Below are positions 644 to 17,675 of a DNA stretch of 24,333 nucleotides, piece by piece. The notes beneath the pieces were generated by a model. The model had not been told where the DNA came from. It did no database searches and saw only the letters and a program-made list of their open reading frames with translations. The stretch is from a virus. The DNA lies in the IMG/VR virus record IMGVR_UViG_3300018421_000200, positions 1-24,333 of that record; one strand, given 5' to 3'. Numbering within the stretch: the first letter of the stretch is position 1; the number at the start of each line of letters is the position of its first letter. The position numbers and the translations under genes are program-made.

Positions 644-1492
644 TCAATTTGAGGTCGGAAGCAGGAAACTTCTGACTCGATCTATTCTAAACAGCTCAGG
701 CGGCAAAAACTCATGGGGATAATCGACAAGAATGTGGTCAGTGCGGCCTAAAGGATCTGTAGCACCAGCCTCAGCCTTGTACTTATCCATAAAATCAAGC
801 ATTTCCTGGCTGTCAGCGGGTGCTACAGCATTAGGAATAACGTCATAACAGTGAGAAAAAGACTGAACCTTAGTTTTGTGCCGGTCTGGGCCTCCCATCC
901 ACGAAAAATGCCACCCGGCATCGCAGTTCCCGTAGATGCAGTCGTTCGGATTCCGCCGAATCTGAGATAACGTCTCGCCATTCAGGTGCTCGTGGAGTAC
1001 AAAGGTGCCGCAAATCCAATTATTCGGTGCTTTTGTGTCATCACCGTTCGGATCTGTAACTCGAAGATCGGCCCGACCATAAAGCATAGGCATTGACAGC
1101 CGAATACAGCGATCCGGGGAGTCTTTAGCGATACGAGCGCCTTCAATTAAGGCTTCTGGCCTCGGAATTTCGTCTACATCACTGAAAAAGAAGACAGAAT
1201 CGGGCGGAGTCATCCGCATACCGACAGCCAAAGCGTCTCTTTGAGCGTACTCTCGCGCCCACGGGCTGAAAATCTCCTCTTTAGAGGGGAGCTCAACGTG
1301 TAAAACCTGCACTTTGTCCTCAGGAATGCCTAGCTCCCGAAGAGTATCAACGCACGTAAAAGGTTTAGGGTCGCCCTTAAACGTACGATTTGCGTCTGTG
1401 ATGATAAAACCGTCTACAACGTCTTTAAGAAGCTCATATCGAAGCTCTAAAAGCTCCTTCTCGTTGAAGTAAAGGAAACAATCGAACAACAT
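644..1492 (-). CDS. GT17-family glycosyltransferase (N-acetylglucosaminyltransferase-like)
   Basis: A 282-aa protein opening with MLFDCFLYFNEKELLELR and continuing with DVVDGFIITDANRTFKGDPKP, the hallmark start of family GT17 (the eukaryotic GnT-III, beta-1,4-mannosyl-glycoprotein GlcNAc-transferase family, which has bacterial and viral members). The motif FFFSDVDEIPRP at about residues 102-113 provides the acidic DVD/E metal and sugar-nucleotide site. It probably transfers a sugar from a nucleotide donor to a glycan in the cytoplasm; donor and acceptor cannot be read from sequence. I chose ATG 1492 over an in-frame TTG at 1504 because the family begins there and GAAG lies about 8 nt upstream. 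It sits between the DUF5872-like pair and the portal gene, an unusual place for a glycosyltransferase. Confidence 0.88.
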   Translation of the reverse strand: MLFDCFLYFNEKELLELRYELLKDVVDGFIITDANRTFKGDPKPFTCVDTLRELGIPEDKVQVLHVELPSKEEIFSPWAREYAQRDALAVGMRMTPPDSVFFFSDVDEIPRPEALIEGARIAKDSPDRCIRLSMPMLYGRADLRVTDPNGDDTKAPNNWICGTFVLHEHLNGETLSQIRRNPNDCIYGNCDAGWHFSWMGGPDRHKTKVQSFSHCYDVIPNAVAPADSQEMLDFMDKYKAEAGATDPLGRTDHILVDYPHEFLPPELFRIDRVRSFLLPTSN

Positions 1493-1545
1493 CAGCCGCT
1501 TCAAGCTGTCAATATAGTAGTACAGACAGCTTTAAAACACAAAAA

Positions 1546-1764
1546 TCAGTTGGATTTATCTCGACTTAGATAAGCCCTGGCTTTACGGCTGGCCCGTTTT
1601 GCAGCTTCTGTATTAGAAACTTGCGTATTGACTGGTTTGTCGCCACGGGTGGCAGCTTTTTTCTTCTCGTCAGTAGCCCTACGTTCCTCGGGGGACAGTC
1701 GAGCCCAAGCACTTTTAGGTAAGTACCGCTCAGTTCGACCTTTTTCGCGAGCTAGATCGGCCAT
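1546..1764 (-). CDS. Small basic protein, C-terminal half of a DUF5872-like family
   Basis: A 72-aa Lys/Arg-rich protein. The central stretch RYLPKSAWARLSPEERRAT, followed by DEKKKAA and NTEAAKRASRKARAYL, resembles the C-terminal half of a basic protein family I know as DUF5872, found in phages, bacteria and giant viruses. In that family this region normally follows, in the same polypeptide, the type of sequence encoded by the gene just upstream (1764-1994). Here ATG overlaps the upstream stop as TGATG, so translation is probably coupled and the two peptides may act together. Function is unknown; the high positive charge would suit nucleic-acid binding, which is inference. The family name is from memory and needs a profile search. 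Confidence 0.72.
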   Translation of the reverse strand: MADLAREKGRTERYLPKSAWARLSPEERRATDEKKKAATRGDKPVNTQVSNTEAAKRASRKARAYLSRDKSN

Positions 1765-1994
1765 CAGTCCTTCTTCTTCTTCTCGTACTCTTCCCTAGTC
1801 TGCCAATCTTCTTTAGACCACTTAGATAGTCTGTTCTTAGATGACTTTTTACCTTCGTAACTGCCTCCCATGTCCTTGTAATACTTTGTAGCCAACTGCA
1901 TAGCACGGGCACTGTGGCCGCCCATTTTGGCGCGAGCTTTCGCTTTAGCCCTCGCCCACTTCTGCGGATCTCGTTTTTTAGCAACTTCAGTCAT
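1764..1994 (-). CDS. Small basic protein, N-terminal half of a DUF5872-like family
   Basis: A 76-aa strongly basic protein. It contains KARAKMGGHSARAMQLATKYY, GGSYEGKK, then LSKWSKEDWQT and a poly-lysine end (YEKKKKD). The order GG-x-SAR-x-x-QLA, Y-x-GKK-S, LxKWxKExW matches the N-terminal half of DUF5872-like proteins as I remember them. The stop overlaps the next start (TGATG at 1762-1766), and the next gene supplies the missing C-terminal half in the -1 frame. The AAG-repeat run just before the stop is a place where slippage or a sequencing indel could occur. It begins with TAATG overlap to the upstream 98-aa gene, so the set is tightly coupled. A longer frame at 1730-1984 is a shadow. Confidence 0.75.
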   Translation of the reverse strand: MTEVAKKRDPQKWARAKAKARAKMGGHSARAMQLATKYYKDMGGSYEGKKSSKNRLSKWSKEDWQTREEYEKKKKD

Positions 1995-2290
1995 TAGTAA
2001 AGAACGAAGACGCCACCAATGTCACCGCTGTGGACAGCTGTGCAAGAGATAGGAACCAACATATCGCCCTTTAAGTTCTCTGCACGAGCATACTGCCCAG
2101 GAGCATCACTCAGTTCTACAGTTAACGTGCCGCCAGCTCCGTTGCTTTTAGACATGATAAAGATGGCCCGACAAGCGGCAAAATTTATTGAGCCGCCGTC
2201 TCCGCTAGGCGATGGCACAAAACCAAAGCCACTGGTGTACGGAACTTCACCGCGATACGGGTAAACGCCGCCGAAAGCACGAAGATCCAT
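1994..2290 (-). CDS. Small beta-rich virion-type protein
   Basis: A 98-aa protein without charge-rich helices and with many Gly, Ser, Val and aromatic residues. The C-terminal part (CRAIFIMSKSNGAGGTLTVE, then GDMLVPISCTAVHSGDIGG and a terminal VFVLY) has the pattern 'R-A-hydrophobic strand, G-rich turn, strand, G-x-x-L-P-V, strand, terminal hydrophobic-L-Y'. Small phage spike-base or capsid-decoration proteins, such as the Rcc01079 type of gene transfer agents, have this pattern. I infer a small beta-sandwich structural protein. It lies 23 nt after the DUF6378-like gene and shares TAATG with the next gene. ATG 2290 is the only reasonable start. No domain name can be assigned with certainty. 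Confidence 0.65.
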   Translation of the reverse strand: MDLRAFGGVYPYRGEVPYTSGFGFVPSPSGDGGSINFAACRAIFIMSKSNGAGGTLTVELSDAPGQYARAENLKGDMLVPISCTAVHSGDIGGVFVLY

Positions 2291-2616: not shown

Positions 2617-2737
2617 TGTGCTCTCTAAGAAACTTCAGAAGATTATAGGCGTCAGAACGCTCAAGGATTTCAGCTCCGCGCTGACCGTTAAGGATGTAAC
2701 ACACCGAAACCCGGCCAGCCCCTCTAGTTAAAGTCAC
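2585..2737 (-). CDS. 50-aa unknown protein
   Basis: A short frame bridging the glycosyltransferase at 2734 and the DUF6378-like gene. The GTG start at 2737 overlaps the upstream stop as GTGA, typical of coupled phage genes; an internal GTG at 2704 would give 39 aa. The predicted product contains CYILNGQRGAEILERSDAYN followed by LLKFLREHNGTVYWF, an alpha/beta pattern with good hydrophobic periodicity, and it fills an otherwise empty 117-nt gap. Its last 32 nt overlap the next gene. No family recognised. Support comes from the packing of the frame, its composition and the translational coupling. Confidence 0.5.
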   Translation of the reverse strand: MTLTRGAGRVSVCYILNGQRGAEILERSDAYNLLKFLREHNGTVYWFNAA

Positions 2738-3633
2738 TCAAGAACAAACATTTCGGTACAGTCTATAAGATCAACCCCGTTCTTACTTAACTCTGGAGCG
2801 TACTTATAGTCATTATGCTTCATCAAACAACATGCTTTTGGAATATAATTTCCATTTTTCTTGATCAGGGGGATGCAACGACGATGCTCATAGCCAACAG
2901 GAACATCTTCAAAAGCTAAACCCATAGAACTTCTATCTGCGATAGGCCAGTTACGGATGCCTACGCGGGCGTAACTCTTCTCAGGATCGAAGCTGTCAGA
3001 CCGGATATAAGCCTCACCATCCTTCTGATCTAATATCATCGCTCCATAGTAAGGGTTAGCGGCCTGCACAAACACACTTATCTCATGATCTACCACTAAG
3101 ATTTTAGGAACAGTGAACCCAACGTCAGACCAGACGTTAGGCGTCTCTCTCAAAAGGGAGTATCGATAGTGATTATCGAAAGGAACGCATAAACCGTTGT
3201 ACTCTTCGTACCTAATAAATCCAGGCTCAAACCCGGACTTAGCCAAGCGTGGCTTCCAAGCTAACCAGTAATGAAAATTATCTAAGTTGAGAGCCATATC
3301 ATTCTCTTGATAAATATAATAATCATGCCTTCTATTTAAAATCTCAAGAGCTAGATCCGTTTTATGCGCCCAGGTCAAGTACCAGCCTTCATAGCCAGGG
3401 CTAGCGACCTTGACGCTAGTGTTTACATTCTTGAAAATATTTACAGACTTCTCTAGGAACTCCAGGTCACCCTGAGAACCATAATCAATATAGATACAAG
3501 CAGTAACTCTGTACGGGAAAGAATCGTATTGCGACAGAGTATTAAGTAACGTAGACAGACGCTCAAGCGGTTTGTGCGCAGTAATAGCGACCCAAATACT
3601 CTTCACATCAGTACTCGATGGAGAAGTTGCCAC
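2734..3633 (-). CDS. GT-A type glycosyltransferase
   Basis: A protein of 290-299 aa with a Rossmann-like first strand IWVAITAHKPLERLSTLLNT (residues 13-32), a second strand region YRVTACIYIDYGS (41-53) and the acidic motif YYIYQENDMALN (105-116). The last has the spacing of the metal-binding DxD element of GT-A enzymes, here as END. This layout fits a cytoplasmic sugar transferase, perhaps GT2-related; donor and acceptor unknown. The longest frame begins at GTG 3633 and overlaps terminase by 26 nt. A second GTG at 3606, just after the terminase stop, gives a product starting VKSIWVAITAHKPL, which looks like the natural beginning. The gene is directly downstream of terminase and reads into the small-gene block. 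Confidence 0.75.
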   Translation of the reverse strand: MATSPSSTDVKSIWVAITAHKPLERLSTLLNTLSQYDSFPYRVTACIYIDYGSQGDLEFLEKSVNIFKNVNTSVKVASPGYEGWYLTWAHKTDLALEILNRRHDYYIYQENDMALNLDNFHYWLAWKPRLAKSGFEPGFIRYEEYNGLCVPFDNHYRYSLLRETPNVWSDVGFTVPKILVVDHEISVFVQAANPYYGAMILDQKDGEAYIRSDSFDPEKSYARVGIRNWPIADRSSMGLAFEDVPVGYEHRRCIPLIKKNGNYIPKACCLMKHNDYKYAPELSKNGVDLIDCTEMFVLE

Positions 3634-5128
3634 GCCGCTGGAGGAATGTGATCAACCAAGTATATGCGTCCAGTAAGTCATCGTGCGACGTAGCACCAAC
3701 ATTTATTAACTGTTCAAATAGCGCATCAAACTTCCTGTACTTGTTAAACACCACCTTTTTATGCTCAAGGATTCCCAAGGTGCCTCTAAAACGAGACAGC
3801 TTGTCGCCCCGGAAGCCTTTAACTTCATGGACATGTAAATTCGTCAACTCTCGCTCGTTAATCAACACCCTCTTGATATCCGCCGCCAAAGACGCCTGAT
3901 ACGCCACGGATTCAACTACCAGCGACACCGTGGAGTACGTAGGGACATACCGATCCTCTTGCTTATAGAGAATGCCCCACTCCAACAACATATCGCAGAG
4001 CAGATCGATCTTTTCTAAATTTCCGATACTCCGGCATTGGTGAGCATCGATGATGTAGTACATATCTTTCAGGCGGCCACCCAGAACGAAAGCTGTGTAA
4101 TCACTCGTTTCGTTCTTACTGGCCGACAGGTCGATGCCTACAGCCAGTGAATCGAACTCTGTAACCACTTCGCCTTTGACCAACAACTCAGGCGAAACAA
4201 TCAGGTCTGAAGTTAGAACAGGCTGTTGCTGGTACTGGAAGGCAAAAGCTACAGGATCCAGTTCTTTTTGCTGCTGTAAGTAACTAACGGACCACTGCTC
4301 AGGCCAGTAACTTACAGCTTCACCGCGATTGTCATAAGTCAAGGCCTCTTGAGTTACCTGCTTCCAGCCTTTTGATTCAACAAACAGAGTTTTGTGGATG
4401 TCGAGTGGGTGGAACCGAGTACCCAAGCAAATAGAACGCCCACCTTCGAAGATAATCGGCGCGATCACAGAAGACCAGTTATTATTCATTTCTTCCCTAA
4501 TAGTAGGGTTTTTGATATCCGTACTAGACTTAATGGGGTCATCTACAATAACAAGGTGAGCACGCTTAGACGTAATAGAACCTCTAAGACCGGCTGCACG
4601 AAGAGTAAATTCTTCATCGCCCACGCGGGGGATGCCTGCGTACTCAAAATCAATAGACCAGCCAACGTCCGACTGCATACCAGTCTTCAATCGAACGCGA
4701 GGGAAAATCTTCTTGAACTCAGCAGAGTCGATGATCTGCTTGATAATTCGACTTTTGGGTATAGCGGTATTGATGTTATACGAAACGTAAATAATCTGCA
4801 GAGGCAGCTTCGCAGACGTGTGCCGTCCTATAGTCCATGCAGTGAACAGGTTTAGTACGGTTGACTTTGCAGAGCCTCTAGGGCTTAGAATGTCAAGATT
4901 AGGTCCAGCAATGTCTATAAGATATTTATTAGAATCACCTGTTATCAAGTGCTGATGCCATTCCAGCATGTGCTTGGCTGGCGGTTTATCTAGAACCGTA
5001 CAGAACGTCTGGAAATCGTTAGCAGCCTTGGTGTAAACAGTATCTACAGCGTTTTCTGTTGTCTCTTGAGCACGAACTGCTTTGATCTGTGCAGCACGAC
5101 GGTAAGCAAAGGACTCGCGACTCGGCAT
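3608..5128 (-). CDS. terL: Terminase large subunit (DNA packaging ATPase/nuclease)
   Basis: A 506-aa packaging motor subunit. The ATPase domain shows a Walker A-like loop SPRGSAKST at 82-90, Walker B with catalytic acid HLVIVDD at 191-197 and a coupling motif CLGTRFHPLD at 234-243. The C-terminal RNase H-like nuclease domain shows GIDLSASKNETSDYTA at 331-346 (Asp333), VVESVAY at 404-410 (Glu406) and SHDDLLDAYTWL at 481-492 (Asp483/484), the three acidic clusters expected for metal-dependent cleavage of concatemeric DNA. Length is usual for the family. ATG 5128 is preceded by AGGA at good spacing. It is separated from the upstream virion genes by the plus-strand GT4/GH130 island and overlaps the next glycosyltransferase. 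The enzyme works at the portal on filling procapsids. Confidence 0.95.
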   Translation of the reverse strand: MPSRESFAYRRAAQIKAVRAQETTENAVDTVYTKAANDFQTFCTVLDKPPAKHMLEWHQHLITGDSNKYLIDIAGPNLDILSPRGSAKSTVLNLFTAWTIGRHTSAKLPLQIIYVSYNINTAIPKSRIIKQIIDSAEFKKIFPRVRLKTGMQSDVGWSIDFEYAGIPRVGDEEFTLRAAGLRGSITSKRAHLVIVDDPIKSSTDIKNPTIREEMNNNWSSVIAPIIFEGGRSICLGTRFHPLDIHKTLFVESKGWKQVTQEALTYDNRGEAVSYWPEQWSVSYLQQQKELDPVAFAFQYQQQPVLTSDLIVSPELLVKGEVVTEFDSLAVGIDLSASKNETSDYTAFVLGGRLKDMYYIIDAHQCRSIGNLEKIDLLCDMLLEWGILYKQEDRYVPTYSTVSLVVESVAYQASLAADIKRVLINERELTNLHVHEVKGFRGDKLSRFRGTLGILEHKKVVFNKYRKFDALFEQLINVGATSHDDLLDAYTWLITFLQRRGNFSIEY

Positions 5129-5181
5129 ATCAATATCCTGACAGTGTTGCTATAGTGACCCTACCGAGATTCTACATCTGA
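5129..5181. promoter_or_regulatory. Divergent promoter region between terL and the GT4 gene
   Basis: This 53-nt gap separates two divergent genes and must hold the start signals of the plus-strand island. On plus, TGTTGCTATAGTGAC offers TATAGT (5151-5156) as a -10; on minus, TAGAAT (5170-5175) and CACTATAG are possible -10 boxes. The near-palindromic CTATAG core is shared by both strands. Similar TGTTACTAT(A/G)G strings occur in the divergent gaps near 12230 and 17020. No consensus -35 box is visible, so the assignment is tentative. Confidence 0.35.
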
Positions 5182-6354
5182 ATGGCGAAAGTACTTTGGT
5201 ACGGAGACGCTTGTTCTAACACTGGATTTGGACGAGTAACGCACAGTGTACTAGATCACTTGCATAAACACCATGACGTTACAGTCATGGGAATTAACGC
5301 TGTAGGGGATCCTCACGAATACCCCTTTGATATCTACCCTGCTGCCACGGTCAACGCTCCTGACCGTTTTGGTATGCAGCGGCTGCCGGAGATCGTATCC
5401 AAAGTCAAACCAGACGTATTTATAGGTCTGAATGACATCTGGGTACTGAATCAGGTGTGGGAGAAAGTCCACTTCCTGAAGGAGCAGCACAAATTTAAGT
5501 TTCTGGCTTACTTCCCTACGGATAGCGAAGCGTATCTCCCCGATATGCTGCGCAACATCGAGCACTGGGATCTGGCCACGACGTTCACGATCGGCAGTGC
5601 TGAACGCTTACTGAAACACAAGATCCATCCGAAGCGCTTGGCGGTTCTGCCTCACGGTGTAGACAACGGGCGATTCAAACCCATGTCTAAAGACGAGGCA
5701 CGCGATAGCCTGGGACTCCCGAAAGACAAGTTCATTGTCTTCAATGGCAACCGTAACCAACCCCGCAAACGCATTGATTTAACGATCCAGGCGTTTGCCA
5801 AGTTCGCTGTAGATAAACCGGATACGATGCTGTATCTCCACATGGGTCTTAAAGACCTAGGGTGGGACATTATGCCGATCTTCCAACGGGAGATGGAGAA
5901 GTACGGCTTAGACCCGTACAACCGCTTGATTCTTACGTCCAACTCAATCTCTTACTTGGACGCTCCGCCAGACGAACTTCTTAACCGCATCTATAACGCC
6001 ACGGACGTTGGCCTGAATACAGCAGACGGCGAAGGCTGGGGCTTAGTTAGCTTCGAGCACGCAAGCTGCAAACGTCCTCAGATTGTACCTAATCACACTG
6101 TATGCAAAGACATTTGGGAAGGGGCGGGTATGCTCGCAGACATCGCAACTTGGGTCACCGATAAAGATCTCGGTGTTGTTAGGGGTCTAGTCGATACCGA
6201 CTCAGTGTGCAGCCAGTTAAATGAGCTTTACGAAAATGTAAGTACTTACATGGAAGTTGCAGACGCCTGCTACGCCTTGACTCAGCGTCGGGAATACAGA
6301 TGGGAACACATCGCTGATGGTTTCTCTCAAGCAATCACTGATCTCCTCGCCTGA
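5182..6354 (+). CDS. GT4-family glycosyltransferase (GT-B fold)
   Basis: A 390-aa retaining glycosyltransferase. The N-terminal domain has VLWYGDACSNTGFGRVT with the glycine-rich acceptor loop at 15-18; the C-terminal nucleotide-sugar domain has NGNRNQPRKRIDLTIQAF (188-205) and the family signature DGEGWGLVSFEHASC, with Glu284 and Glu292 forming the E-x7-E motif. The expected role is transfer of a hexose from a nucleotide donor to a glycan or lipid-linked acceptor in the cytoplasm; the specific sugar cannot be read. It is the first gene of a two-gene plus-strand island and is followed after 2 nt by the GH130-like gene, suggesting one transcript and a joint pathway. It uses CGC/CTG/ATC codons more than the neighbouring minus-strand virion genes, consistent with later acquisition. 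Confidence 0.9.
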   Translation: MAKVLWYGDACSNTGFGRVTHSVLDHLHKHHDVTVMGINAVGDPHEYPFDIYPAATVNAPDRFGMQRLPEIVSKVKPDVFIGLNDIWVLNQVWEKVHFLKEQHKFKFLAYFPTDSEAYLPDMLRNIEHWDLATTFTIGSAERLLKHKIHPKRLAVLPHGVDNGRFKPMSKDEARDSLGLPKDKFIVFNGNRNQPRKRIDLTIQAFAKFAVDKPDTMLYLHMGLKDLGWDIMPIFQREMEKYGLDPYNRLILTSNSISYLDAPPDELLNRIYNATDVGLNTADGEGWGLVSFEHASCKRPQIVPNHTVCKDIWEGAGMLADIATWVTDKDLGVVRGLVDTDSVCSQLNELYENVSTYMEVADACYALTQRREYRWEHIADGFSQAITDLLA

Positions 6355-6356: not shown

Positions 6357-7436
6357 ATGCAATCGACTAACCGCTTCTTCCACGCATACTCCGGCGTGGC
6401 TCAACTGATCCGCAAAGAAGAGAAGGGTATCCCTAACGTCTACCAACAGGCCGAAGCGCTTGGCGGCAAGTTCACCAGGATCACACACGGTCTACCGGAC
6501 AAGGCAGTTGCCAATTTCAGCCCTAGCATTATCAAGCACGGCGACAGAACCCTGATCGCCTGGCGCTGTCAGCCCGAACCTTTCTGCTTCCGGCACGACA
6601 GTAATTACTTCTACATGAACGAAACTCCTACGGAGGTGTACATCGGTGAACTCGCTGACGACAGTACAATCCTGGGTGCGAAAAAGATTAGATCAAAGCC
6701 GCACAGGCTTAGCTACGAAGATCCACGGCTGTTTCACGGACCTGACGGTGAACTATATGTTCAGTTTGTTGGGTCTACATACGCCAGCAAGTACAACAAA
6801 AAAGACAAAAAACTATTCGATCAACCGAAAGTAATCGTCTGCTACTTAAACAAAGAAGGGGAAGCTTTATACCCAGCGATCCCGCCTATTGGTGAGAACA
6901 AAGTCATAGGAAAACCCGAGAAAAACTGGTGTTTCTTCTCCCATGACGATCAACTTAAGTGCCTCTACTCCACAAGGCCTTTGAAGATCGAGTGTGAGCG
7001 AGGTGACAACGTTGAAATAGATACCAGTCCGCTAGAGGCAGCTACAGGCGGTAGCGCAACCTTCAACTCACTGCCGCCAATCAACCTCGGTTACGGCTAT
7101 CTGATCTTCTACCACTGGAAGCACATGGCCAAGGATGAAGCAGGGTTTACATACCTGCTGTATCACCTCGGAGCTTACATTATCGATAAGGAGTTTAAAG
7201 AAGTCTTGTACGTAGACGAGAAGCCCCTTTTCAGTGGCTCTCTGAATGACAGGCTTATTTCATGGACAGACGCCAACGCTAACGTTGTGTCGTTTCAACC
7301 AGCAGTGGTTCTGCCTTTTGGTGCCTACATCGAAGACACACAGCTGGTTATGTCATTGGGTGTTAACGATGCTTTCATGGGGGTCTTCCGATGCCCGCTC
7401 GAAAGTATCATGAAGCGTATGAAGAGAGTTAATTAA
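6357..7436 (+). CDS. GH130-like five-bladed propeller glycan phosphorylase/transferase
   Basis: A 359-aa predicted beta-propeller. Repeating blades show GH130 (DUF377) signatures: NFSPSIIKHGDRTLIAWR (53-70), SYEDPRLFHGPDGELYVQF (119-137) with the conserved EDPR, GGSATFNSLPPI (231-242), LIFYHWKH (249-256) and YHLGAYIID (269-277). GH130 enzymes phosphorolyse or hydrolyse beta-mannosides, and the related GT108 proteins make mannan, so with the GT4 gene just upstream a mannose-containing glycan is plausible; that is inference. Start ATG 6357 follows the GT4 stop by 2 nt. The stop shares TTAA with the opposing gene's stop at 7433-7436. Catalytic activity cannot be judged from sequence alone; a glycan-binding or transferase role remains possible. 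Confidence 0.75.
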   Translation: MQSTNRFFHAYSGVAQLIRKEEKGIPNVYQQAEALGGKFTRITHGLPDKAVANFSPSIIKHGDRTLIAWRCQPEPFCFRHDSNYFYMNETPTEVYIGELADDSTILGAKKIRSKPHRLSYEDPRLFHGPDGELYVQFVGSTYASKYNKKDKKLFDQPKVIVCYLNKEGEALYPAIPPIGENKVIGKPEKNWCFFSHDDQLKCLYSTRPLKIECERGDNVEIDTSPLEAATGGSATFNSLPPINLGYGYLIFYHWKHMAKDEAGFTYLLYHLGAYIIDKEFKEVLYVDEKPLFSGSLNDRLISWTDANANVVSFQPAVVLPFGAYIEDTQLVMSLGVNDAFMGVFRCPLESIMKRMKRVN

Positions 7437-7963
7437 CTCTTCTCTTCTCGCTCAACCACGGACCAGACCAGAAGCGCAGCATCCTCAAGCAGAGCTTGAA
7501 TCGTCGGCTGTGAGTCAAAGGTCTGGTTCAATTCCCTGAGGCAGCGATCGGCACCGGCAAGTAACAAGCCACGCCGATCCATGCCATCAGTAATGGCTCG
7601 AACAGATTGGATGTGCGAGCGGAGTTCTTTCTGAAGCGCTGAGATCTTAGTGGCCGCCGTGGCATGATCCAACATGCCTGTAGTCGTCATGTCTCTAACG
7701 TTTCTAATATCCATCTGCAGCTCATCAATCTCGATGAGCAGGACTTTACGCAAATCGACCTTAGGGTACTTCTCCTGCACCCAAGCAGTAAGGTCGCTGA
7801 TACTACCGTCATAGCTAGGCTTCAAAAACCTAGCGTATAGGTAGGCCTCTACGTCGCTGGCAGCATTTTTAGCGTAAAATAAGAACGCATCTTTGTTAGA
7901 CTTATCTAAAGAGTCTAACCAAGCAGCAACAGTCTGAGAGTTACCAATAGATGAAGTAATCAT
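7433..7963 (-). CDS. Unknown helical protein, possible small terminase subunit
   Basis: A 176-aa mainly helical protein. It contains ISDLTAWVQEKYPKVDLRKV (55-74), followed by a long helical segment LLIEIDELQMDIRNVRDM (75-92) and another around TKISALQKELRSHIQSVRAI. It has no membrane segment. The gene is ATGA-coupled to the preceding virion-type gene and is the last minus-strand gene before terL, with only the plus-strand GT4/GH130 island between. A small DNA-recognising terminase subunit usually occupies this position, and the size and coiled helical character would fit, but I see no diagnostic motif. It could equally be another virion or chaperone protein. Confidence 0.6.
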   Translation of the reverse strand: MITSSIGNSQTVAAWLDSLDKSNKDAFLFYAKNAASDVEAYLYARFLKPSYDGSISDLTAWVQEKYPKVDLRKVLLIEIDELQMDIRNVRDMTTTGMLDHATAATKISALQKELRSHIQSVRAITDGMDRRGLLLAGADRCLRELNQTFDSQPTIQALLEDAALLVWSVVEREEKS

Positions 7964-10612: not shown

Positions 10613-11119
10613 TCAGCTCAGTTGTTGGAAACTAACGGAAGGAGGAATTTGACTGTTAGAAGGGGCGTTTAACACAGAGTAATGCCCGCCATAGTTAGGA
10701 ATATCGTACTCAATAGGAGCTTGTTGACTTAAATAATCACCAGAAGCTTCAGACTCCATTTGATCACCTAATAGCATATCTAAAAGCATTTCAACTAACT
10801 GAGGATTTTCTAGAAGAACCTCAGCTATAGCCTGAGCCTGCGCCATATCCTCAGAATCTGTGACGCCAGCCCGCATACGCTGCTCAAGCTGAGCCTTGAG
10901 CTCAGGCTGAGCCGTAGAAGGGGGAGCATTCAGTGAGCGAGTAGCACTTAAGGTCCGAACTGAGGGGTCTTCGAAACCAGGAGAAGGTGCCATACCACGC
11001 CCGAATTCTCTCAGAACACGAGCAACAATAGGGGCAGCAGCTGCCCGCTCAGCGACAGTACGAGGAACCGGAAGACCCGTAATACGGGCAGTTAGCTCAT
11101 AATCTGCGGGACTAAACAC
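10613..11119 (-). CDS. Unknown virion-cluster protein
   Basis: A 168-aa protein starting with FSPADYELTARITGLPVP, then a Pro-rich linker and an acidic helical part (DMAQAQAIAEVLLENPQLVE followed by MLLDMLLGDQ) near the middle and a Gly/Ser/Gln tail. An ATG at 11185 would extend the frame by 22 residues, but that part lies antiphase inside the HTH gene and looks like shadow sequence. GTG 11119 overlaps the HTH stop by 8 nt and gives a sensible N-terminus, so I prefer it; no Shine-Dalgarno is evident and coupling is likely. No family recognised. It heads the chain of virion-type genes 11119-7433. Confidence 0.62.
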   Translation of the reverse strand: MFSPADYELTARITGLPVPRTVAERAAAAPIVARVLREFGRGMAPSPGFEDPSVRTLSATRSLNAPPSTAQPELKAQLEQRMRAGVTDSEDMAQAQAIAEVLLENPQLVEMLLDMLLGDQMESEASGDYLSQQAPIEYDIPNYGGHYSVLNAPSNSQIPPSVSFQQLS

Positions 11120-11384
11120 CGGAACATACCGCCATCTGTGATTCCATATTAGACGAGATTCGCAATATATCGCCAGGCCCAACATCTAAAACTAAACAAA
11201 TCCTTTCTAAAACGTCAGGAGAAGGTATGTAATCAGAATCACTATAGATACGCCGAGTAGTCGTAGGCGAGAGATTAGCAACTTTACTAAGTTTAAACGA
11301 CGAGATGTTGCGGCTATCGAGAACACCGCGCAGCGAGTTAACTAACCGCTTCTTAGAAGGATAGGAAGAGTAAAAAGGCACCAC
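11112..11384 (-). CDS. XRE-type helix-turn-helix regulator
   Basis: A protein of about 90 aa with a Cro/CI-like DNA-binding domain: LVNSLRGVLDSRNISSFKLS then KVANLSPTTTRRIYSDSDYI and PSPDVLERICLVLDVGPGDI, giving the five-helix XRE pattern with the HTH at about 30-48. The likely role is repression or activation of a phage promoter. Starts are weak (two adjacent GTG codons at 11384 and 11381, with CAAGG immediately upstream), and initiation further downstream is possible. It lies between the GT2 gene and the virion block and may control the latter. No second regulator or operator repeat is seen next to it. Confidence 0.65.
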   Translation of the reverse strand: MVPFYSSYPSKKRLVNSLRGVLDSRNISSFKLSKVANLSPTTTRRIYSDSDYIPSPDVLERICLVLDVGPGDILRISSNMESQMAVCSGV

Positions 11385-11420: not shown

Positions 11421-12188
11421 TCAAAAACCCAGGTTTTTAGTGCGTACGAAGTGGAGATCGTACGTCGTGTAATCAATAGGTATGCTGGGGTTATTGAATG
11501 GAGTCTTGTACACCTCCCCTTCTACGTGAGCCTGCCACGCTGGATTCCACTTCGAATGCAGGTACTGCTTGTTCAGTTCATGGGCGAAATTGATTTTTTG
11601 GGCCAATTCTGGCTCGGAGCGCCAGGTCTGTGACCCGTCCGCGTAATCCCCGGAGGTCTCCCCATGGAAATAAGGAACGCCAACAGACATACAACGCTTT
11701 AACTCCTGATGCTTAAAACGCATCCCATAGTCCATATCCTCACAGTACGCTGGAGCTAAGTTCTCATCAAATAAACCAAATTTCTGCACCACCCAGTCCT
11801 TCAGCAGGAACACATCCCAGCTTCCATTCTCCCCATGGACTATACCTGTTTCTGCATCCCCTGCGTGGTTTACCATGCGCTCTAGGAACCCAGGTGTGAA
11901 CATGATGTCATGGTTCACGATAACCCAGTAAGGGCTCATCATAAAGCATTTGACGATTAAATTCCAGTAGCCACTGCAACCAATATTCTGCGGCAAGTGG
12001 CAAACTTTAACCTGTTTAACGTACTTATGCGGTACTTTAGTCAGCAGGTCTAACTCCTCAGTAATCTGGTCCCTACCATTATTATTAAATACTACAAACG
12101 TATCTACAGGATAATCAATACTATAAAACAGTCTGTAAACCCAATGAGGTGCATTAACAACCCCAGTACCGATAACAGGTATTGACAT
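11421..12188 (-). CDS. GT2-like glycosyltransferase (GT-A fold)
   Basis: A 255-aa inverting-type glycosyltransferase. The nucleotide-binding first part contains VDTFVVFNNNGRD (28-40) and LPQNIGCSGYWNLIVKCF (65-82). The metal site is a DxD equivalent at WVIVNHDIMFTPGFLERM (88-105), and the catalytic-base region is GLFDENLAPAYCEDMDYGMR (138-157) with the ED motif typical of GT2 enzymes related to rhamnosyl and galactosyl transferases. It is short, with no membrane helix, so it is a soluble enzyme acting in the cytoplasm. The gene is divergent from the FkbM methyltransferase gene across a 75-nt gap, which may place both under shared control. Confidence 0.86.
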   Translation of the reverse strand: MSIPVIGTGVVNAPHWVYRLFYSIDYPVDTFVVFNNNGRDQITEELDLLTKVPHKYVKQVKVCHLPQNIGCSGYWNLIVKCFMMSPYWVIVNHDIMFTPGFLERMVNHAGDAETGIVHGENGSWDVFLLKDWVVQKFGLFDENLAPAYCEDMDYGMRFKHQELKRCMSVGVPYFHGETSGDYADGSQTWRSEPELAQKINFAHELNKQYLHSKWNPAWQAHVEGEVYKTPFNNPSIPIDYTTYDLHFVRTKNLGF

Positions 12189-12263: not shown

Positions 12264-12980
12264 ATGACAACTTTCCTTTGGGGGCCACAGGAGCCCCTGA
12301 TCCAGAAGATCCCCGGTCCCGCGTTTCTGATGCACGATGACGATTCGGGCCGTTGTCAGATGTTCAAAGTCGGCATCCCCGAACTTGCCTTAGTTGAATT
12401 TGCCAGAAAGATAAGACGCCCGGATTCCGTATTTATCGACGGCGGTGCCCACATGGGTGTGTACTCGATCCTGCTAGCAGACAGATTCAAGGAAGTACAC
12501 GCCTTTGAACCGCAGCGCCGCACATACAACCAACTGTGTGGCAACATCTTCATCAACGAAAAGAACAATATCTACACGCACAACGTAGCCCTCACTAACT
12601 TAGCTAACGCCAATACGACCAAGACCTTATCCATCGTGTCCGACGATGGTGGCGGATCTACCCTTCAAAAAACGACAGAGCACGTTCAAGCCACGGAGCT
12701 CGTCAAGACAGCAACGATCGACAGCCTTCACTTAGACAGCGTGGGGTTGATCAAGCTGGACGTTGAGGGCAACGAATACGAAGCCATCGAAGGCGCCCAG
12801 CACACGATCAAACGATGCAACTACCCGCCAATTCTCTTCGAAGCAAACGGGCACTCGTGGTACAACTACACAAACGAGAAATTATTCCAACTTCTACGAA
12901 ACATGAATTATCAAATCATGAAGACTCGTCCTTTTGAGAACATGTATGTAGCTCGACAAGGTACGGATCTATTAGCGTAA
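12264..12980 (+). CDS. FkbM-family SAM-dependent methyltransferase
   Basis: A 238-aa class I methyltransferase. Motif I is SVFIDGGAHMGVYSILLA (55-72), the acidic SAM-ribose position is VHAFEPQ (78-84), and the family signature TIDSLHLDSVGLIKLDVEGN at about 151-170, followed by EYEAIEGA, is characteristic of FkbM enzymes. FkbM-type enzymes O-methylate sugars and natural products, and phage copies often accompany glycosyltransferases, so O-methylation of a phage-made or host glycan is a reasonable inference. The start has TGAGGG at suitable spacing. The last 65 nt overlap the opposing dCMP deaminase gene tail to tail, so both C-termini are constrained by each other. Confidence 0.9.
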   Translation: MTTFLWGPQEPLIQKIPGPAFLMHDDDSGRCQMFKVGIPELALVEFARKIRRPDSVFIDGGAHMGVYSILLADRFKEVHAFEPQRRTYNQLCGNIFINEKNNIYTHNVALTNLANANTTKTLSIVSDDGGGSTLQKTTEHVQATELVKTATIDSLHLDSVGLIKLDVEGNEYEAIEGAQHTIKRCNYPPILFEANGHSWYNYTNEKLFQLLRNMNYQIMKTRPFENMYVARQGTDLLA

Positions 12981-13407
12981 AGTCTACGCCACACTCGCGG
13001 AACATATCCTTAGACAGGTTGAAGCTGTCCGCCCAACGATCGGGGATAGGCAGGTTTGGCGCCACCACTCGCTGAAAACCTGCCTGGAGCAGCAATGTGC
13101 AGCACGAGTTGCAGGGGGAAAACGGCCAAACGTAAATAGTTGAATTCTTCAAAGACACGCCATTACAGGCGGCTTGAGCGACGATGTTCGCCTCAGCATG
13201 GACAGTGCGCAGCAGCTTCTCAGAACGATTGTGGAGCCGCGTGGGGAAGTCACTCAACCCCTGGGGAAAGCCGTTGTAGCCGGTAGCCAGGACTCGGCGC
13301 TCACGAACTGCCACGGCGCCAACTTGGGTTGACGGATCCTTGCTCCACGAAGAGATGTGCCTAGCCATGGCGAGGAACCGAGCGTCCCACCTGTATACGT
13401 CTCTCAT
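12916..13407 (-). CDS. dCMP deaminase (zinc-dependent)
   Basis: A 163-aa deoxycytidylate deaminase that makes dUMP for dTMP synthesis. Residues 6-31 show RWDARFLAMARHISSWSKDP followed by STQVGA, the classical N-terminal signature. Zinc and catalytic residues are HAE (70-72) and PCNSC (98-102). The NGFP loop is at 45-48. An in-frame extension to 13524 would add 39 residues unlike the family and collide with a plus-strand gene, so I chose ATG 13407. The C-terminal tail (VELHTCSQKDESS) is antisense to the FkbM gene and beyond the catalytic core. It is next to an NrdR-type protein, which fits nucleotide metabolism, and is probably read in the tRNA/zinc-protein unit. Confidence 0.92.
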   Translation of the reverse strand: MRDVYRWDARFLAMARHISSWSKDPSTQVGAVAVRERRVLATGYNGFPQGLSDFPTRLHNRSEKLLRTVHAEANIVAQAACNGVSLKNSTIYVWPFSPCNSCCTLLLQAGFQRVVAPNLPIPDRWADSFNLSKDMFRECGVDFTLIDPYLVELHTCSQKDESS

Positions 13408-13420
13408 GAAATAATATGAG

Positions 13421-13426
13421 TAGAAT
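13421..13426 (+). promoter_or_regulatory. Candidate -10 box for the 111-aa plus-strand gene
   Basis: TAGAAT lies 29 nt before ATG 13456. This matches one mismatch from TATAAT and would place the transcript start near 13433, leaving a leader of about 23 nt. It also makes a TTG start at 13426 unlikely. No -35 box is visible. Confidence 0.3.
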
Positions 13427-13455
13427 TGAGAATAATACGACAGGTTCCGCCGGGC

Positions 13456-13791
13456 ATGGACCCTAAAGTTAAAGGCGCTCTTAGATTCGTAAACCAACAA
13501 ATCGGCCTTGGGCAGCCTACACACAGGAACCCCTTAGTCCAAGGCGCAATGAGAGCTGTAAAGTATGTAAATCCGTATTCAGTTAGAAATCAACTGGAAG
13601 ACACAGCGTACAGATTGGCGGGCCAAGTTTTTGGTGAAGAGTCTCCGGTCGTGAAACTTATTGGCAACTACGCTTGGGGGCCTCACGTAGGGACAGTACT
13701 AACAGTAATGGACCCCTTACCAGCAGGTCCAACTGACGAAGAAGAACGCAGAAGAATAGAAGAATACAATCGACAGTACCCTAACCGCTAA
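13456..13791 (+). CDS. 111-aa unknown protein
   Basis: A basic to neutral protein with MDPKVKGALRFVNQQIGLGQ at the start, a helical middle (AMRAVKYVNPYSVRNQLEDT, AYRLAGQVFG), a hydrophobic glycine-containing segment (VVKLIGNYAWGPHVGTVLTV) that could contact a membrane, and an Arg/Glu-rich tail with EEERRRIEEYNRQYPNR. No family recognised. It forms a one-gene plus-strand island and converges with the NrdR-like gene, sharing CTAA at 13788-13791. A TTG at 13426 is in frame but coincides with the candidate promoter, so I use the ATG. Confidence 0.6.
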   Translation: MDPKVKGALRFVNQQIGLGQPTHRNPLVQGAMRAVKYVNPYSVRNQLEDTAYRLAGQVFGEESPVVKLIGNYAWGPHVGTVLTVMDPLPAGPTDEEERRRIEEYNRQYPNR

Positions 13792-14147
13792 ACAAGTTCT
13801 GTATAACAGAAACACTCTTTAGCAAAATCTCCACCAGCCTCAGGGAATCCCATAGTGCAGCCCTGAGTCGCACTCATGTGAATACAGTAATCACACGAAT
13901 CACGAGGATTTGCACCGGCCACGCCGGATCCAGACTCCTCACCAAAACACGAACGGATACGGTCTAAGGTTTCAGCAGCTTTCCTGAGCTTCTCAAAGTA
14001 CTCAGACGAGAGCTCGTAAGTAGTAAACCTGTAGTCACACGAACGGCATATCTTACGTCGCCGAACGTGATCCTTCATTTTGTGGCTTTCCCCATAGCGG
14101 ATATTACGCTCTCCGCACTTGGGACAAGTAGGTAAGTTGTTTGCCAT
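13788..14147 (-). CDS. NrdR-type zinc ribbon protein without ATP-cone
   Basis: A 119-aa protein whose N-terminal half has the zinc ribbon of the ribonucleotide reductase repressor NrdR: CPKC at 8-11, CRSC at 34-37 and the flanking RRRKICRSCDYRFTTYE (29-45). NrdR proteins bind operators upstream of nrd genes. The ATP-cone that should follow is absent; instead residues 85-114 hold a second Cys set (CDYC, C97, C112, C114) that could bind another zinc. It may therefore bind DNA without nucleotide sensing, perhaps titrating or mimicking the host regulator, which is inference. ATG 14147 avoids an extension that would run into tRNA-Leu. It is near dCMP deaminase, consistent with deoxynucleotide control. 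Confidence 0.75.
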   Translation of the reverse strand: MANNLPTCPKCGERNIRYGESHKMKDHVRRRKICRSCDYRFTTYELSSEYFEKLRKAAETLDRIRSCFGEESGSGVAGANPRDSCDYCIHMSATQGCTMGFPEAGGDFAKECFCYTELV

Positions 14148-14161
14148 GATGTTGATGTGTA

Positions 14162-14234
14162 TACCCGAGATGGGATTCGAACCCACCCTGTAACGATTTT
14201 AAGTCGTTTGCCTCTTCCGCTGGGCTACTCGGGC
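14162..14234 (-). tRNA. tRNA-Leu(UAA), short variable loop
   Basis: A 73-nt cloverleaf is complete: acceptor GCCCGAG/CTCGGGU with a G1-U72 wobble, D stem GCC/GGC, anticodon stem AACGA/TCGTT around CTTAAAA (anticodon UAA, codon UUA), T arm with GGTTCGAATCC and discriminator A73. CCA is not encoded. The variable region is only 5 nt, whereas bacterial tRNA-Leu normally has a long variable arm. Confidence 0.88.
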
Positions 14235-14235
14235 G

Positions 14236-14311
14236 TGGTGCGCGTCGAGGGAATCGAACCCACCTCAGGCGAATTATGAGTTCGCTGCATTCACCAGATT
14301 GCTAGACGCGC
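14236..14311 (-). tRNA. tRNA-Met(CAU) (or tRNA-Ile with modified CAU), CCA encoded
   Basis: A perfect acceptor stem GCGCGTC/GACGCGC, anticodon stem GCGAA/TTCGC around CTCATAA (anticodon CAU), T loop TTCGATT, discriminator A and an encoded CCA at 14236-14238. The G1-C72 pair argues against an initiator. Whether it is elongator Met or lysidine-type Ile(AUA) cannot be decided by eye. It lies 1 nt from tRNA-Leu. Confidence 0.88.
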
Positions 14312-14367
14312 ATGGCAGAATCATAACGTCTGCCGGGTTGCATGAAGGCTGTGTAACGGAAAGCGAC

Positions 14368-14802
14368 TTATACGCCTAACTTCCCACAGCCGTCCATGAA
14401 CTTCTGCACATGCCTAGACCGATCAGTCTTACGCTTAGAACTATTCTTCCGGTTAGCTACATTTTTTACATGTTCCCCAAGCACCTTTTCAACCGCCAAA
14501 ATACCGCTACTTAAATATCCAAACGACCGAACGCTAGTCACCGTAGCGTCTGGTGCTTGGCATACATCACAGTAACCCGTATGGTACGTGGCGTACAAAG
14601 GGAAACAGTTAGAGCTCCCATATGTAGCGCCGCAGTGACCGCACACGAAATCTGCGTTATTTAAATCCCTCAAAAGCTCCTTGTAGGATTCCGTTACAAA
14701 GTCATCGTCAAGGTCGGGATCTAGGTCAGACAGAGGCAGGCGGAGTTGTGAGTTGGATACCACGGTTTTGATGAGCGACTTTGATGTTCGCCCTACACGC
14801 AC
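14368..14802 (-). CDS. Unknown zinc-finger protein
   Basis: A protein of up to 144 aa with a four-cysteine site: VCGHC at about 53-57 and CDVC at about 78-81, a zinc ribbon-like spacing. A basic C-terminal region follows (NVANRKNSSKRKTDRSRHVQ) that could bind nucleic acid. An acidic segment (LSDLDPDLDDDFVTESYKEL) precedes the finger. The GTG start at 14802 overlaps the upstream zinc-finger gene by 77 nt; a GTG at 14763 is an alternative, so the first 13-25 residues are uncertain. It is placed between tRNA-Thr and tRNA-Met in the same unit. No family recognised; HNH nuclease motifs are absent. Confidence 0.65.
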   Translation of the reverse strand: MRVGRTSKSLIKTVVSNSQLRLPLSDLDPDLDDDFVTESYKELLRDLNNADFVCGHCGATYGSSNCFPLYATYHTGYCDVCQAPDATVTSVRSFGYLSSGILAVEKVLGEHVKNVANRKNSSKRKTDRSRHVQKFMDGCGKLGV

Positions 14803-14944
14803 AGGTGTAGCTGCAATAAGGACCAGCCTTATCAGGCTTGGCCTTCACGGATTTTAGCCAGTCCCTCAATCTGGAACCACGCAGTTCAAACTCTTTGCCG
14901 CATTGCGGACAATCTTGCACCATTCGCGACGTGCGACTAACCAT
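14726..14944 (-). CDS. 72-aa zinc-finger protein
   Basis: A small protein with DCPQCGKEFELRGSRLRDWL and then PYCSYTCACR, so a C-x2-C / C-x3-C zinc site at about 12-15 and 44-48, similar to treble-clef or FYDLN-like mini-fingers common in phages. The loop between the pairs is basic. ATG 14944 lies 24 nt after tRNA-Thr. The C-terminal end overlaps the next zinc-finger gene in another frame. A role in binding DNA or RNA is possible but not shown. Confidence 0.65.
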   Translation of the reverse strand: MVSRTSRMVQDCPQCGKEFELRGSRLRDWLKSVKAKPDKAGPYCSYTCACRANIKVAHQNRGIQLTTPPASV

Positions 14945-14968
14945 AGACCGTGGGACTACAGAGGGTTA

Positions 14969-15040
14969 AGCCGACTAACGGATTTGAACCGATGGCCTTC
15001 GCTTTACAAAAGCGCTGCTCTACCACTGAGCTAAGCCGGC
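14969..15040 (-). tRNA. tRNA-Thr(UGU)
   Basis: A 72-nt cloverleaf: acceptor GCCGGCT/AGTCGGC with one G-U pair, D arm GCTC-AGTGGTA-GAGC, anticodon loop TTTGTAA (anticodon UGU, codon ACA), T arm with GGTTCAAATCC. The anticodon stem has a G-A mismatch at its outermost pair. No CCA is encoded. It is the first RNA of the tRNA/zinc-protein unit. Confidence 0.88.
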
Positions 15041-15143: not shown

Positions 15144-16007
15144 ATGTCTAACTTCTTTAAAGGCCTCAAGCTAGCCGGTTCACACACCTGGAACACAGTC
15201 CAGCCGTTCAATAATGTAACTACACCACTAAGAAAACTCGTTGGAAATTTTACAAGACTCTGGACCATAGAAACACGGGGTATGGTCTTACAGAATTCAA
15301 CCTGGGGCTCGAACACACCAGGACTTGTAAGAGTCCAAGACGTACCGTGGAAAAAAGACGGCAGCCTAAACGAACGTTATTACAACCGCTTAGAGAACGT
15401 AGTACGTAAGGCAGAACGTAGGGATGTAGTTACAGGCGTTATACTCTTCGACCACGCCTTCAACGCATACTTCCCTCGTGGTTGGAAATTCCACCCCCTC
15501 AATGGCCTAGGACCCAAAGACGCGACTGAGATCCACACTAGAGGCCGGTGGAACAAGTACCAACGCGCCCATGTAAAAGAAGTAGTTAAGCGCCTAGAGG
15601 ACTACGACAACGTAATCTACGAAGTAGGTAACGAACTACATGGTAATTCCGTCTCTTGGTTCCAAAAAAAAGTAGTCACATGGGTCAAGAAGTGGACCGA
15701 TAAACCAGTTGGCGTTAGCTACGCATCTGGAATTAGACCCAGCAGAGGGCGTAGCCAAGACTGGATCACAAGGACAGGTGCTGATTGGGCCGCCCCATCA
15801 GGCGGGGAAAGAGTCTCAGGCTTCAAGGGACATTACGTTTTTGATACTGACCACGCCTCTGCCCTGCGTCCGAACGTATCTGGATTGCGTAGCGCATGGC
15901 AAAGAGGAGACTCCCTCTGGTTAATGGATGGACTTGACGGCAACATCCTTAGAAACCAGGGGAGTCTCGCTGCCGATCGGAACTTTATATCGGCAAGTAT
16001 TGGCTAA
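15144..16007 (+). CDS. TIM-barrel glycoside hydrolase-like protein (clan GH-A type)
   Basis: A 287-aa protein with alternating strands and helices. Strand-like elements are FTRLWTIE (36-43), VVTGVILFDHAF (95-106), DNVIYEVGNELHG (155-167), KPVGVSYASG (187-196), GHYVFDTDHA (229-238) and SLWLMDGLDGN (257-267). The Asn-Glu pair at 163-164 after a strand is the acid/base signature of clan GH-A (GH5-like) glycosidases. The strand where the nucleophile Glu is usual shows FDTDH instead, so catalysis may be altered or use Asp. There is no signal peptide. It may trim a glycan or act as a virion depolymerase. It is a one-gene plus-strand island ending in CTAA overlap with the opposing gene. Confidence 0.65.
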   Translation: MSNFFKGLKLAGSHTWNTVQPFNNVTTPLRKLVGNFTRLWTIETRGMVLQNSTWGSNTPGLVRVQDVPWKKDGSLNERYYNRLENVVRKAERRDVVTGVILFDHAFNAYFPRGWKFHPLNGLGPKDATEIHTRGRWNKYQRAHVKEVVKRLEDYDNVIYEVGNELHGNSVSWFQKKVVTWVKKWTDKPVGVSYASGIRPSRGRSQDWITRTGADWAAPSGGERVSGFKGHYVFDTDHASALRPNVSGLRSAWQRGDSLWLMDGLDGNILRNQGSLAADRNFISASIG

Positions 16008-16243: not shown

Positions 16244-16268
16244 CTTCAAATTTGAATGAAATTAGGAG

Positions 16269-16725: not shown

Positions 16726-16888
16726 CAAGATACTCCAGACCGTTAACCGCTCTGGCTACCACGACCTGCTCAAATACTTCACCCAAGCAAGAACACCCGC
16801 CAGAGTACTCATCAATACCATCGGGACCATCCCATATCCTCCATGAATAAACTTCCAACCTAGGATCGTAGTTAACTTCTAGTTTCAT
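16718..16888 (-). CDS. 56-aa unknown protein
   Basis: A complete short frame with ATG 16888 and stop at 16718-16720. The product contains KLEVNYDPRLEVYSWRIWDG then EYSGGCSCLGEVFEQVVVAR, a compact beta-then-helix pattern with several Trp, Tyr and Cys. It overlaps the 30-aa membrane-peptide gene by ATGA (16885-16888) and the next gene by 8 nt, as expected for a real gene in a dense phage operon. No family recognised. Confidence 0.6.
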   Translation of the reverse strand: MKLEVNYDPRLEVYSWRIWDGPDGIDEYSGGCSCLGEVFEQVVVARAVNGLEYLDV

Positions 16889-16977
16889 TGATTAAAACGA
16901 GTCAAATAGATAGTCATGAGTGCGAGGCCTACTAGCCACGAGATCGTTACCAGGACGATTGGCGGAAGTTCTTTCAC
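16885..16977 (-). CDS. 30-aa single-span membrane peptide
   Basis: A GTG-initiated frame with the sequence pattern KELPPIVLVTISWLVGLALM followed by TIYLTRFNQ: a short charged N-terminus, about 20 uninterrupted hydrophobic residues and a short polar, positively charged tail. This is a textbook single transmembrane helix. Its stop overlaps the next ATG (ATGA). Possible roles such as holin-like, superinfection-exclusion or membrane anchor are guesses. It would be the first gene of the five-gene unit. No Shine-Dalgarno is visible. Confidence 0.5.
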   Translation of the reverse strand: MKELPPIVLVTISWLVGLALMTIYLTRFNQ

Positions 16978-17048
16978 AACAAAAGATCGATCAGAAGTTA
17001 AGCAGCTCCAAAAGACCCTGTTACTATAGAAACACAACTAGAAAAGTC
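16978..17048. promoter_or_regulatory. Divergent promoter region before the methyltransferase gene
   Basis: On plus, CTGTTACTATAGAAAC (near 17017-17032) offers TACTAT or TATAGA as a -10 box about 20 nt before ATG 17049; on minus, the same element reads TTTCTATAGTAACAG and offers TATAGT for the small-gene operon. The string resembles those in the divergent gaps at 5143 and 12230. No good -35 match is seen. Confidence 0.35.
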
Positions 17049-17675
17049 ATGCAAGGCACCTTAGACACTAAATACACCGTAACACATGCATGGTACGAAA
17101 TGCTAACAGGTGGGTATCAGAGGATTTTACAGGAGCCAAAGGCGCAGAAGCTGCACTTTGACCCTAGCGAAAAGCGAACCATCGTTGAAATCGGTGTTTA
17201 CGAAGGCGCATCATCGTGTTGGTGGTCCGATAACCTGCTCGAACACCCCGATAGCCTGCTTTACAGCATCGATCCCTTCCTTGGAAACGTCGAATACCAG
17301 CAGGAACGAGAAAATTTCCCCACGCTGGGTCAAATCGAGCACATCGCGAAGTCCAATATCGCCAAGAGCAAGCATCCTGGCAAAGTTACAGTTTTGAAAG
17401 GCGCCTCTTGGGACGAATTTCCCGACCTTTCCAGCGAGATCAAGGGAATGGGGCGCGAAATTGACATCCTTTACATCGATGGCGAGCACACATCAGAAGC
17501 AGTGTGCCGCGATATCGCCTTATACGTCCCACTTGTCCGGCGTGGTGGCGCTGTAATCATTGATGATTATGGCCACGAGGACGTTCGACGTGGTGTAGAC
17601 GGCGCTTTGGCCGCCCTAAACTGCATGGAAAACGCTTTTTATACAGGCTGGCAGCTTTGGTGCGTTAAGAATTAA
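17049..17675 (+). CDS. Class I SAM-dependent methyltransferase (Methyltransf_24-like)
   Basis: A 208-aa Rossmann methyltransferase. Motif I is TIVEIGVYEGASSCWWSDNL (44-63), the ribose-binding acid follows in YSIDPF (about 72-77), and the later strands are IDILYIDGEHTSEAVCRDIA (138-157) and RGGAVIIDDYGH (165-176). The YIDGxHxYE-like block and VIIDDY pair are typical of Methyltransf_24 and of sugar or cephalosporin-hydroxylase-like methyltransferases found among glycan genes. The frame extends to a GTG at 16920, but the extra 43 residues do not look like the family and cover the divergent promoter region, so ATG 17049 is chosen. A one-gene plus-strand island, converging with the next gene by TTAA at 17672-17675. 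Confidence 0.86.
   Translation: MQGTLDTKYTVTHAWYEMLTGGYQRILQEPKAQKLHFDPSEKRTIVEIGVYEGASSCWWSDNLLEHPDSLLYSIDPFLGNVEYQQERENFPTLGQIEHIAKSNIAKSKHPGKVTVLKGASWDEFPDLSSEIKGMGREIDILYIDGEHTSEAVCRDIALYVPLVRRGGAVIIDDYGHEDVRRGVDGALAALNCMENAFYTGWQLWCVKN

Follow-up and report, generated by a model that had tools for sequence, protein, structure and literature searches.

The 24.3-kb window analysed here (24,333 nucleotides (nt), IMG/VR record IMGVR_UViG_3300018421_000200) is a fragment of viral DNA, catalogued as a virus record, in which genes coding glycan-active enzymes are interleaved with those of the terminase large subunit (TerL) and portal protein. Six of them, coding glycosyltransferases of types GT17, GT-A, GT4 and GT2, a GH130-fold protein and an FkbM-family methyltransferase, form a fixed part of the core genome in a single lineage, which is a relative of Synechococcus phage S-EIV1. 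This lineage is a large group of uncultured tailed phages whose hosts are probably cyanobacteria. Judged from sequence, it is rather likely that the six genes code a cytoplasmic pathway, provided by the phage, for glycosylation of one or more virion proteins as candidate acceptors.

Conservation of the glycan genes

Searches with TerL and GT-A yielded 142 loci of the window clade. Those with TerL (139) reduce to 83 distinct relatives after collapsing by the 3' end of terL, and each gene was scored only where the contig extends far enough. GT-A is found in 80/80 relatives, GT17 in 53/53 (contigs that hold portal), GT4 in 65/65, GH130 in 57/57, GT2 in 25/25 and FkbM in 20/23. Their order and strand are constant in all relatives, and each of nine near-complete relatives carries the complete set. 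The original prediction had eight glycan genes co-occurring near terL and portal. Six are indeed fixed in position, order and strand; the other two, coding a GH-A barrel and a Methyltransf_24 protein, are the only ones with a sporadic and polymorphic pattern and were excluded from the core set for that distribution.

GT17 is missing from contig L156, where terL and GT-A of the clade are fused to a portal and a capsid gene of S-EIV1 type. The sequence (L156:1-11147) has 99% identity to the clade up to position ~4125, where it switches abruptly within the small gene preceding portal. The contig, either a recombinant or a chimera of assembly, was left out of the 83 relatives by deduplication.

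A further glycosyltransferase of GT47 type (Pfam Exostosin_GT47, 1e-10) is encoded elsewhere in the genome of every one of the nine near-complete relatives. When 50 core genes are ranked by mean pairwise identity, GT2 takes 6th place beside portal, followed by GT17 (10th), GT4 (16th), GH130 (21st), FkbM (24th), GT-A (28th) and GT47 (42nd). The median ratio of nonsynonymous to synonymous substitution rates (dN/dS) of the glycan genes, estimated from few unsaturated pairs (2-27 per gene), is 0.08-0.21, which points to evolution under purifying selection. The catalytic motifs show little or no variation: the DxD of GT17 (D109, D111), the EX7E of GT4 (E292 invariant, E284 in at least 90% of sequences), the HD and ED of GT2 (H93-D94, E150-D151) and the EDPR of GH130 (E121-D122-R124 invariant in 26 sequences), with the conserved Asp of the GH130 family. 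GT-A has invariant E110-N111-D112 and D233.

Comparison with the S-EIV1 clade

TerL, portal and GT4 of the window are 53%, 37% and 43% identical to their S-EIV1 counterparts. Identities of TerL, portal and major capsid protein (MCP) are ~52%, 38% and 70% to the S-EIV1 clade versus at least 80%, 71% and ~95% inside the window clade; on these identity values the window clade is a sister lineage of the S-EIV1 clade rather than a member of it. An alignment of the capsid proteins of both clades revealed no insertion resembling a glycan acceptor in the window clade. The two share a backbone with the order o7433-TerL-portal-MCP (o7433 is the gene upstream of terL), which is kept in eighty S-EIV1-type loci and has no glycan genes in that region of any of them. 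The shared backbone therefore defines three boundaries occupied by glycan genes in the window clade: o7433/TerL (GT4 and GH130), TerL/small genes (GT-A) and small genes/portal (GT17). The GT2/FkbM pair occupies a fourth site, some 6-7 kb off. In part of the sister clade, a homologue of the small gene at 1546-1764 directly precedes portal. When six complete sister genomes were searched with profiles, GT4 was found in each of them, far from terL, unlike in the window clade, and GT17, GT-A, GH130, GT2 and FkbM in none; GT47 is likewise absent from the S-EIV1 clade.

The glycan enzymes

All eight glycan genes announced by the original prediction are where it placed them, seven of them backed by Pfam or PHROG matches and the eighth, GT-A, by an AlphaFold model (Table 1). 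Its claim that two genes are wedged between terminase and portal is likewise borne out, by GT-A and GT17. GT-A starts inside terL, overlapping its 3' end by 26 nt, and GT17 lies upstream of portal in the same direction, at a distance of 21 nt.

GT-A is an orphan with no family match in Pfam or PHROG. Its model (predicted local distance difference test score, pLDDT, 86.8) matched mainly GT-A glycosyltransferases in Foldseek, among them GT6, GnTI, LH3 and COLGALT1, with E ~1e-6 and a template modelling (TM) score of only ~0.4. Homologues occur on 304 viral contigs, and no cellular relative was confirmed in a scan of 84,980 bacterial and archaeal genomes. GT17, GT-A and GH130 had zero matches among 50,697 phage records. 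Sequence searches of the PDB with these three proteins returned nothing useful, the haemagglutinin and designed-protein matches being noise.

GH130 begins 2 nt downstream of GT4, a spacing of 2-11 nt across the relatives. The solved structure nearest to GT4 is the GDP-mannose binder B736L of chlorovirus NY-2A (PDB 3oy2; profile E 7e-33, next PDB entry 2e-4). The model of the GH130-fold protein matches GH130 mannoside phosphorylases (Foldseek best E 1.5e-12, TM 0.57-0.67) and additionally the GDP-mannose-dependent MPT-1/2 of Leishmania (E 1e-7), making it a candidate mannoside phosphorylase or GT108-like mannosyltransferase. A scan of cellular genome contigs for GH130 gave one weak match only, from Planctomycetaceae.

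GT2 and FkbM are divergent genes in a block whose outer border is a deaminase gene. Relative G003 carries rmlD, rmlB and rmlA between deaminase and FkbM, all above NCBIfam equivalog cut-offs, while relative G005 has rmlD at the same border; four further contigs hold rml genes or fragments. These dTDP-rhamnose insertions beside FkbM/GT2, exemplified by L094:17007-19689 (rmlD, rmlB, rmlA) and L105:17722-18597 (rmlD alone), tie the block to sugar-nucleotide supply. Matches to the epimerase and nucleotidyltransferase families are both missing in most of the nine near-complete members, which would thus depend on nucleotide sugars of the host. Directly downstream of GT2 is a Cro/C1-type helix-turn-helix gene (11112-11384), conserved in the clade (rank 20/50) and possibly a regulator. 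Several concanavalin/laminin-G-like proteins, two of them mutually similar, are encoded in a variable block of relative G002 (L092:13087-16885), and another adjoins FkbM at L090:16425-17162.

Table 1. Features of the window, with the matches or comparisons that identify them.
Feature	Position	Strand	Evidence
Portal protein, N-terminal 207 amino acids, cut by window edge	2..622	-	PHROG 20475 virion structural protein 1e-32; PHROG 64 portal 2e-4
GT17-family glycosyltransferase	644..1504	-	Pfam PF04724 2e-17, above Pfam cut-off
Three small backbone genes separating GT17 from GT-A	1546-1764, 1764-1994, 1994-2290	-	Kept in most relatives
Orphan GT-A-fold glycosyltransferase	2734..3633	-	AlphaFold model and Foldseek
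TerL	3608..5128	-	PHROG 38 8e-74
Divergent terL/GT4 intergenic region, ~53 nt	5129..5181		Conserved core around TAATATAGCxxxACTGTCA
GT4-family glycosyltransferase, GT-B fold	5182..6354	+	PHROG 2170 glycosyltransferase 1e-48; Glycos_transf_1 7e-6, just below Pfam cut-off
GH130-fold five-bladed propeller	6357..7436	+	Pfam PF04041 2e-7
Backbone gene o7433	7433..7963	-	Mean identity 81% in clade, ~42% in sister clade; order conserved
GT2-like glycosyltransferase	11421..12188	-	Pfam PF00535 (Glycos_transf_2) 2e-6; PHROG 29879 1e-20
FkbM-family methyltransferase	12264..12980	+	Pfam PF05050 2e-18; NCBIfam TIGR01444 9e-25; PDB 2py6 2e-6
dCMP/CMP deaminase	12916..13524	-	Pfam PF00383 3e-20
GH5-like (GH-A) protein, sporadic accessory	15144..16007	+	Pfam PF00150 1e-6
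Methyltransf_24-family methyltransferase, accessory	16920..17675	+	Pfam PF13578 7e-21; RMNT_CmcI 9e-5, just under cut-off

Related gene sets in other viruses

The GT4 homologues of phages S-CBS4, Mae-JY09 and TJE1 are all coded in or beside the terL-portal-capsid region. In S-CBS4 the head module has the order portal-gp13-GT4-GT2-methyltransferase-head, and its GT2 is recognised by the window GT2 profile (E 2e-12, for a single comparison). Among isolates, the window GT2 matched phiPsal1 alone, which has the order MCP-GT4-methyltransferase-GT2-neck. TJE1 has a nucleotidyltransferase-kinase-epimerase-FkbM-GT4 series upstream of terL-portal-capsid, and Mae-JY09 the order MCP-GT4-epimerase. S-CBS4 (gp14-gp16) and phiPsal1 (gp10-gp12) are cultured phages with a related set, of which S-EIV1 has GT4 only. 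Both carry GT4, GT2 and methyltransferase genes between portal/capsid and neck/head genes, and the GT4 of S-CBS4 and the GT2 of both phages are homologous to those of the window. They are nonetheless unrelated phages whose genes form a compact cassette rather than an interleaved set, and which lack GT17, GT-A and GH130.

Virion glycosylation encoded by the phage is established in mycobacteriophages (PMC12363180 and PMC12619734, both citing Freeman 2023). There, glycosyltransferases encoded by phages Che8, Corndog and Myrna are proposed to act on virion proteins; the glycans themselves were detected in these phages, and single glycosyltransferases were implicated. The window lineage differs in that five glycosyltransferases are joined by a GH130-fold protein and a methyltransferase in a lineage-wide core set. 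No lineage-wide interleaved glycan set of comparable size was found in the literature searched.

Chloroviruses PBCV-1 and NY-2A offer another parallel, with B736L as structural kin of GT4 and with several glycosyltransferases and sugar methylation (PMC9614988). They are viruses of eukaryotic algae with another capsid and other enzymes, and a common ancestry of GT4 does not imply the same pathway.

A proposed pathway for virion glycosylation

The set would assemble a short glycan, trim it and O-methylate it, with the capsid, the portal or an associated protein as its carrier. Host nucleotide sugars would serve as donors for GT17, GT-A, GT4, GT2 and the GT47-type enzyme, and methylation of a sugar would fall to FkbM. 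GT4 and the GH130-fold protein, coded side by side, may cooperate on mannose, a substrate suggested by its use in their structural relatives. GT-A and GT17, as part of the terL-to-portal string, would be made during head assembly. Possible benefits are stability, shielding or effects on host range.

As in virion glycosylation systems, the phage encodes its own glycosyltransferases and the glycan genes are conserved within the virion gene module. A hydropathy scan, a crude method, detected no transmembrane segment in the eight glycan proteins, which are soluble by this measure. The overlap of GT-A with terL and the co-directionality of GT-A and GT17 with terL and portal suggest late expression. 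No phage promoter motif common to glycan and capsid genes was found in intergenic regions of ten relatives, nor did a scan of the window for sigma-70 and terminator consensus sequences give an excess of sites, so that late expression is deduced from gene arrangement. The intergenic region between terL and GT4, compared by eye in ~40 relatives, might be a bidirectional promoter/operator.

Several observations weigh against this role. The capsid protein of the sister clade is ~70% identical in the absence of the set, which is therefore not needed for the capsid fold. GT4, GH130 and FkbM lie on the strand opposite to the structural genes. The acceptor of B736L is unproven and the NY-2A capsid glycan has no mannose (PMC9614988). 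Since all carriers belong to one clade, their perfect co-occurrence may also reflect a single ancestral gain rather than many independent events.

Alternative roles

The main rival, which is rather unlikely, is remodelling of a polymer on the surface of infected hosts (O-antigen or exopolysaccharide), either to exclude other phages or to stop the progeny from sticking to debris. The GT2, GT4 and FkbM families occur also in loci for lipopolysaccharide and exopolysaccharide synthesis, and the rml insertions would fit O-antigen rhamnose. Surface remodelling is moreover the usual interpretation of glycosyltransferases from aquatic phages, such as pelagimyophages (PMC7029224) and jumbo cyanophages, for which O-antigen diversification was inferred from a sporadic, polymorphic distribution (PMC7824862). 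The window clade has the opposite pattern, the genes being always present and among the better conserved. Homologues of its glycosyltransferases recur in other phages as part of the head module, and no polytopic GtrA/GtrC-type membrane protein was detected in the set or in relative G002, where no open reading frame (ORF) has more than one transmembrane segment. O-antigen modification of the Gtr type was rejected, the polytopic flippase/transferase components (GtrA, GtrB, GtrC) not being found by the crude hydropathy scan. The preference of the original prediction for the virion over the host surface is strengthened by the GT4/GT2/methyltransferase sets of other head modules, the low polymorphism and the lack of membrane glycan machinery; as an interpretation it is only partly supported overall.

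It is improbable that the genes have no connection with one another and strayed into the structural region as cargo (morons or auxiliary metabolic genes). Insertion at three separate points near terL and portal, with a fourth site for GT2/FkbM, would be expected of cargo, and the GH-A and Methyltransf_24 genes match this pattern, but six genes fixed in constant order and strand, with signs of purifying selection, do not. Production or recycling of a soluble mannoside for host metabolism (a solute or reserve glycan, for example) by GT4 and the GH130-fold protein, independently of the other glycosyltransferases, would agree with their tight spacing and mannose-specific folds and with the persistence of GT4 alone in the sister clade. 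It is very improbable, leaving unexplained the fixed GT2, GT17, GT-A and FkbM genes of the region and the GT4 genes that other phages carry in their head modules.

Glycosylation of modified bases in the phage DNA, in the manner of T-even phages, is the least likely role: phage GT-B enzymes are capable of it, T4 alpha- and beta-GT match B736L too (PMC6024577) and ThyX and a deaminase are encoded, but DNA hypermodification was rejected because the nine near-complete relatives lack a hydroxymethylase of thymidylate synthase type (PF00303, matched in 9/14 control genomes), TET/JBP also gave no match above cut-off (weak on its own, as no control matched either), and the GH130-fold protein and FkbM are poorly suited to this task.

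Accessory genes and other features of the window

The GH-A gene is absent from the 17 relative loci with room for it and from all nine near-complete relatives; its homologues were found on 9 viral contigs, all other than these relatives. The Methyltransf_24 gene is patchy, present in some relatives only. Genes for tRNAs Leu, Met, Thr and Arg are found at 14162-15040 and 23830-23904, the tRNA-Leu gene overlapping the 5' end of an NrdR-like zinc-ribbon ORF (13788-14186). The ORF at 18969-19907, in the variable region, contains the sequence HEARH and possibly codes a zinc peptidase-like protein.

TerL of relatives L126, L141, L168 and L176 features long in-frame intein-like insertions at two sites, one inside the Walker A motif and the other shortly before Walker B; L176 apparently has both. 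The window TerL has no such insertion, and that of S-EIV1 is likewise enlarged.

Implications

A bolder proposal, put forward tentatively, is that a lineage of tailed phages made a multi-enzyme glycan pathway a permanent part of its head-assembly module, as a bacterial counterpart to chlorovirus capsid glycosylation. This pathway would comprise five glycosyltransferases, a GH130-fold enzyme that is possibly a GT108-like mannosyltransferase, a sugar methyltransferase and, in some members, rhamnose genes. If virion glycosylation is indeed the role of the set, it would no longer be peculiar to mycobacteriophages but would characterise a widespread lineage of phages throughout. GT4, GT2 and the methyltransferase would then make up a portable module for virion glycosylation that phages of cyanobacteria and actinobacteria have in common. 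The glycosyltransferases of metagenomic phages, now usually assigned to O-antigen or DNA modification, would then need rereading.

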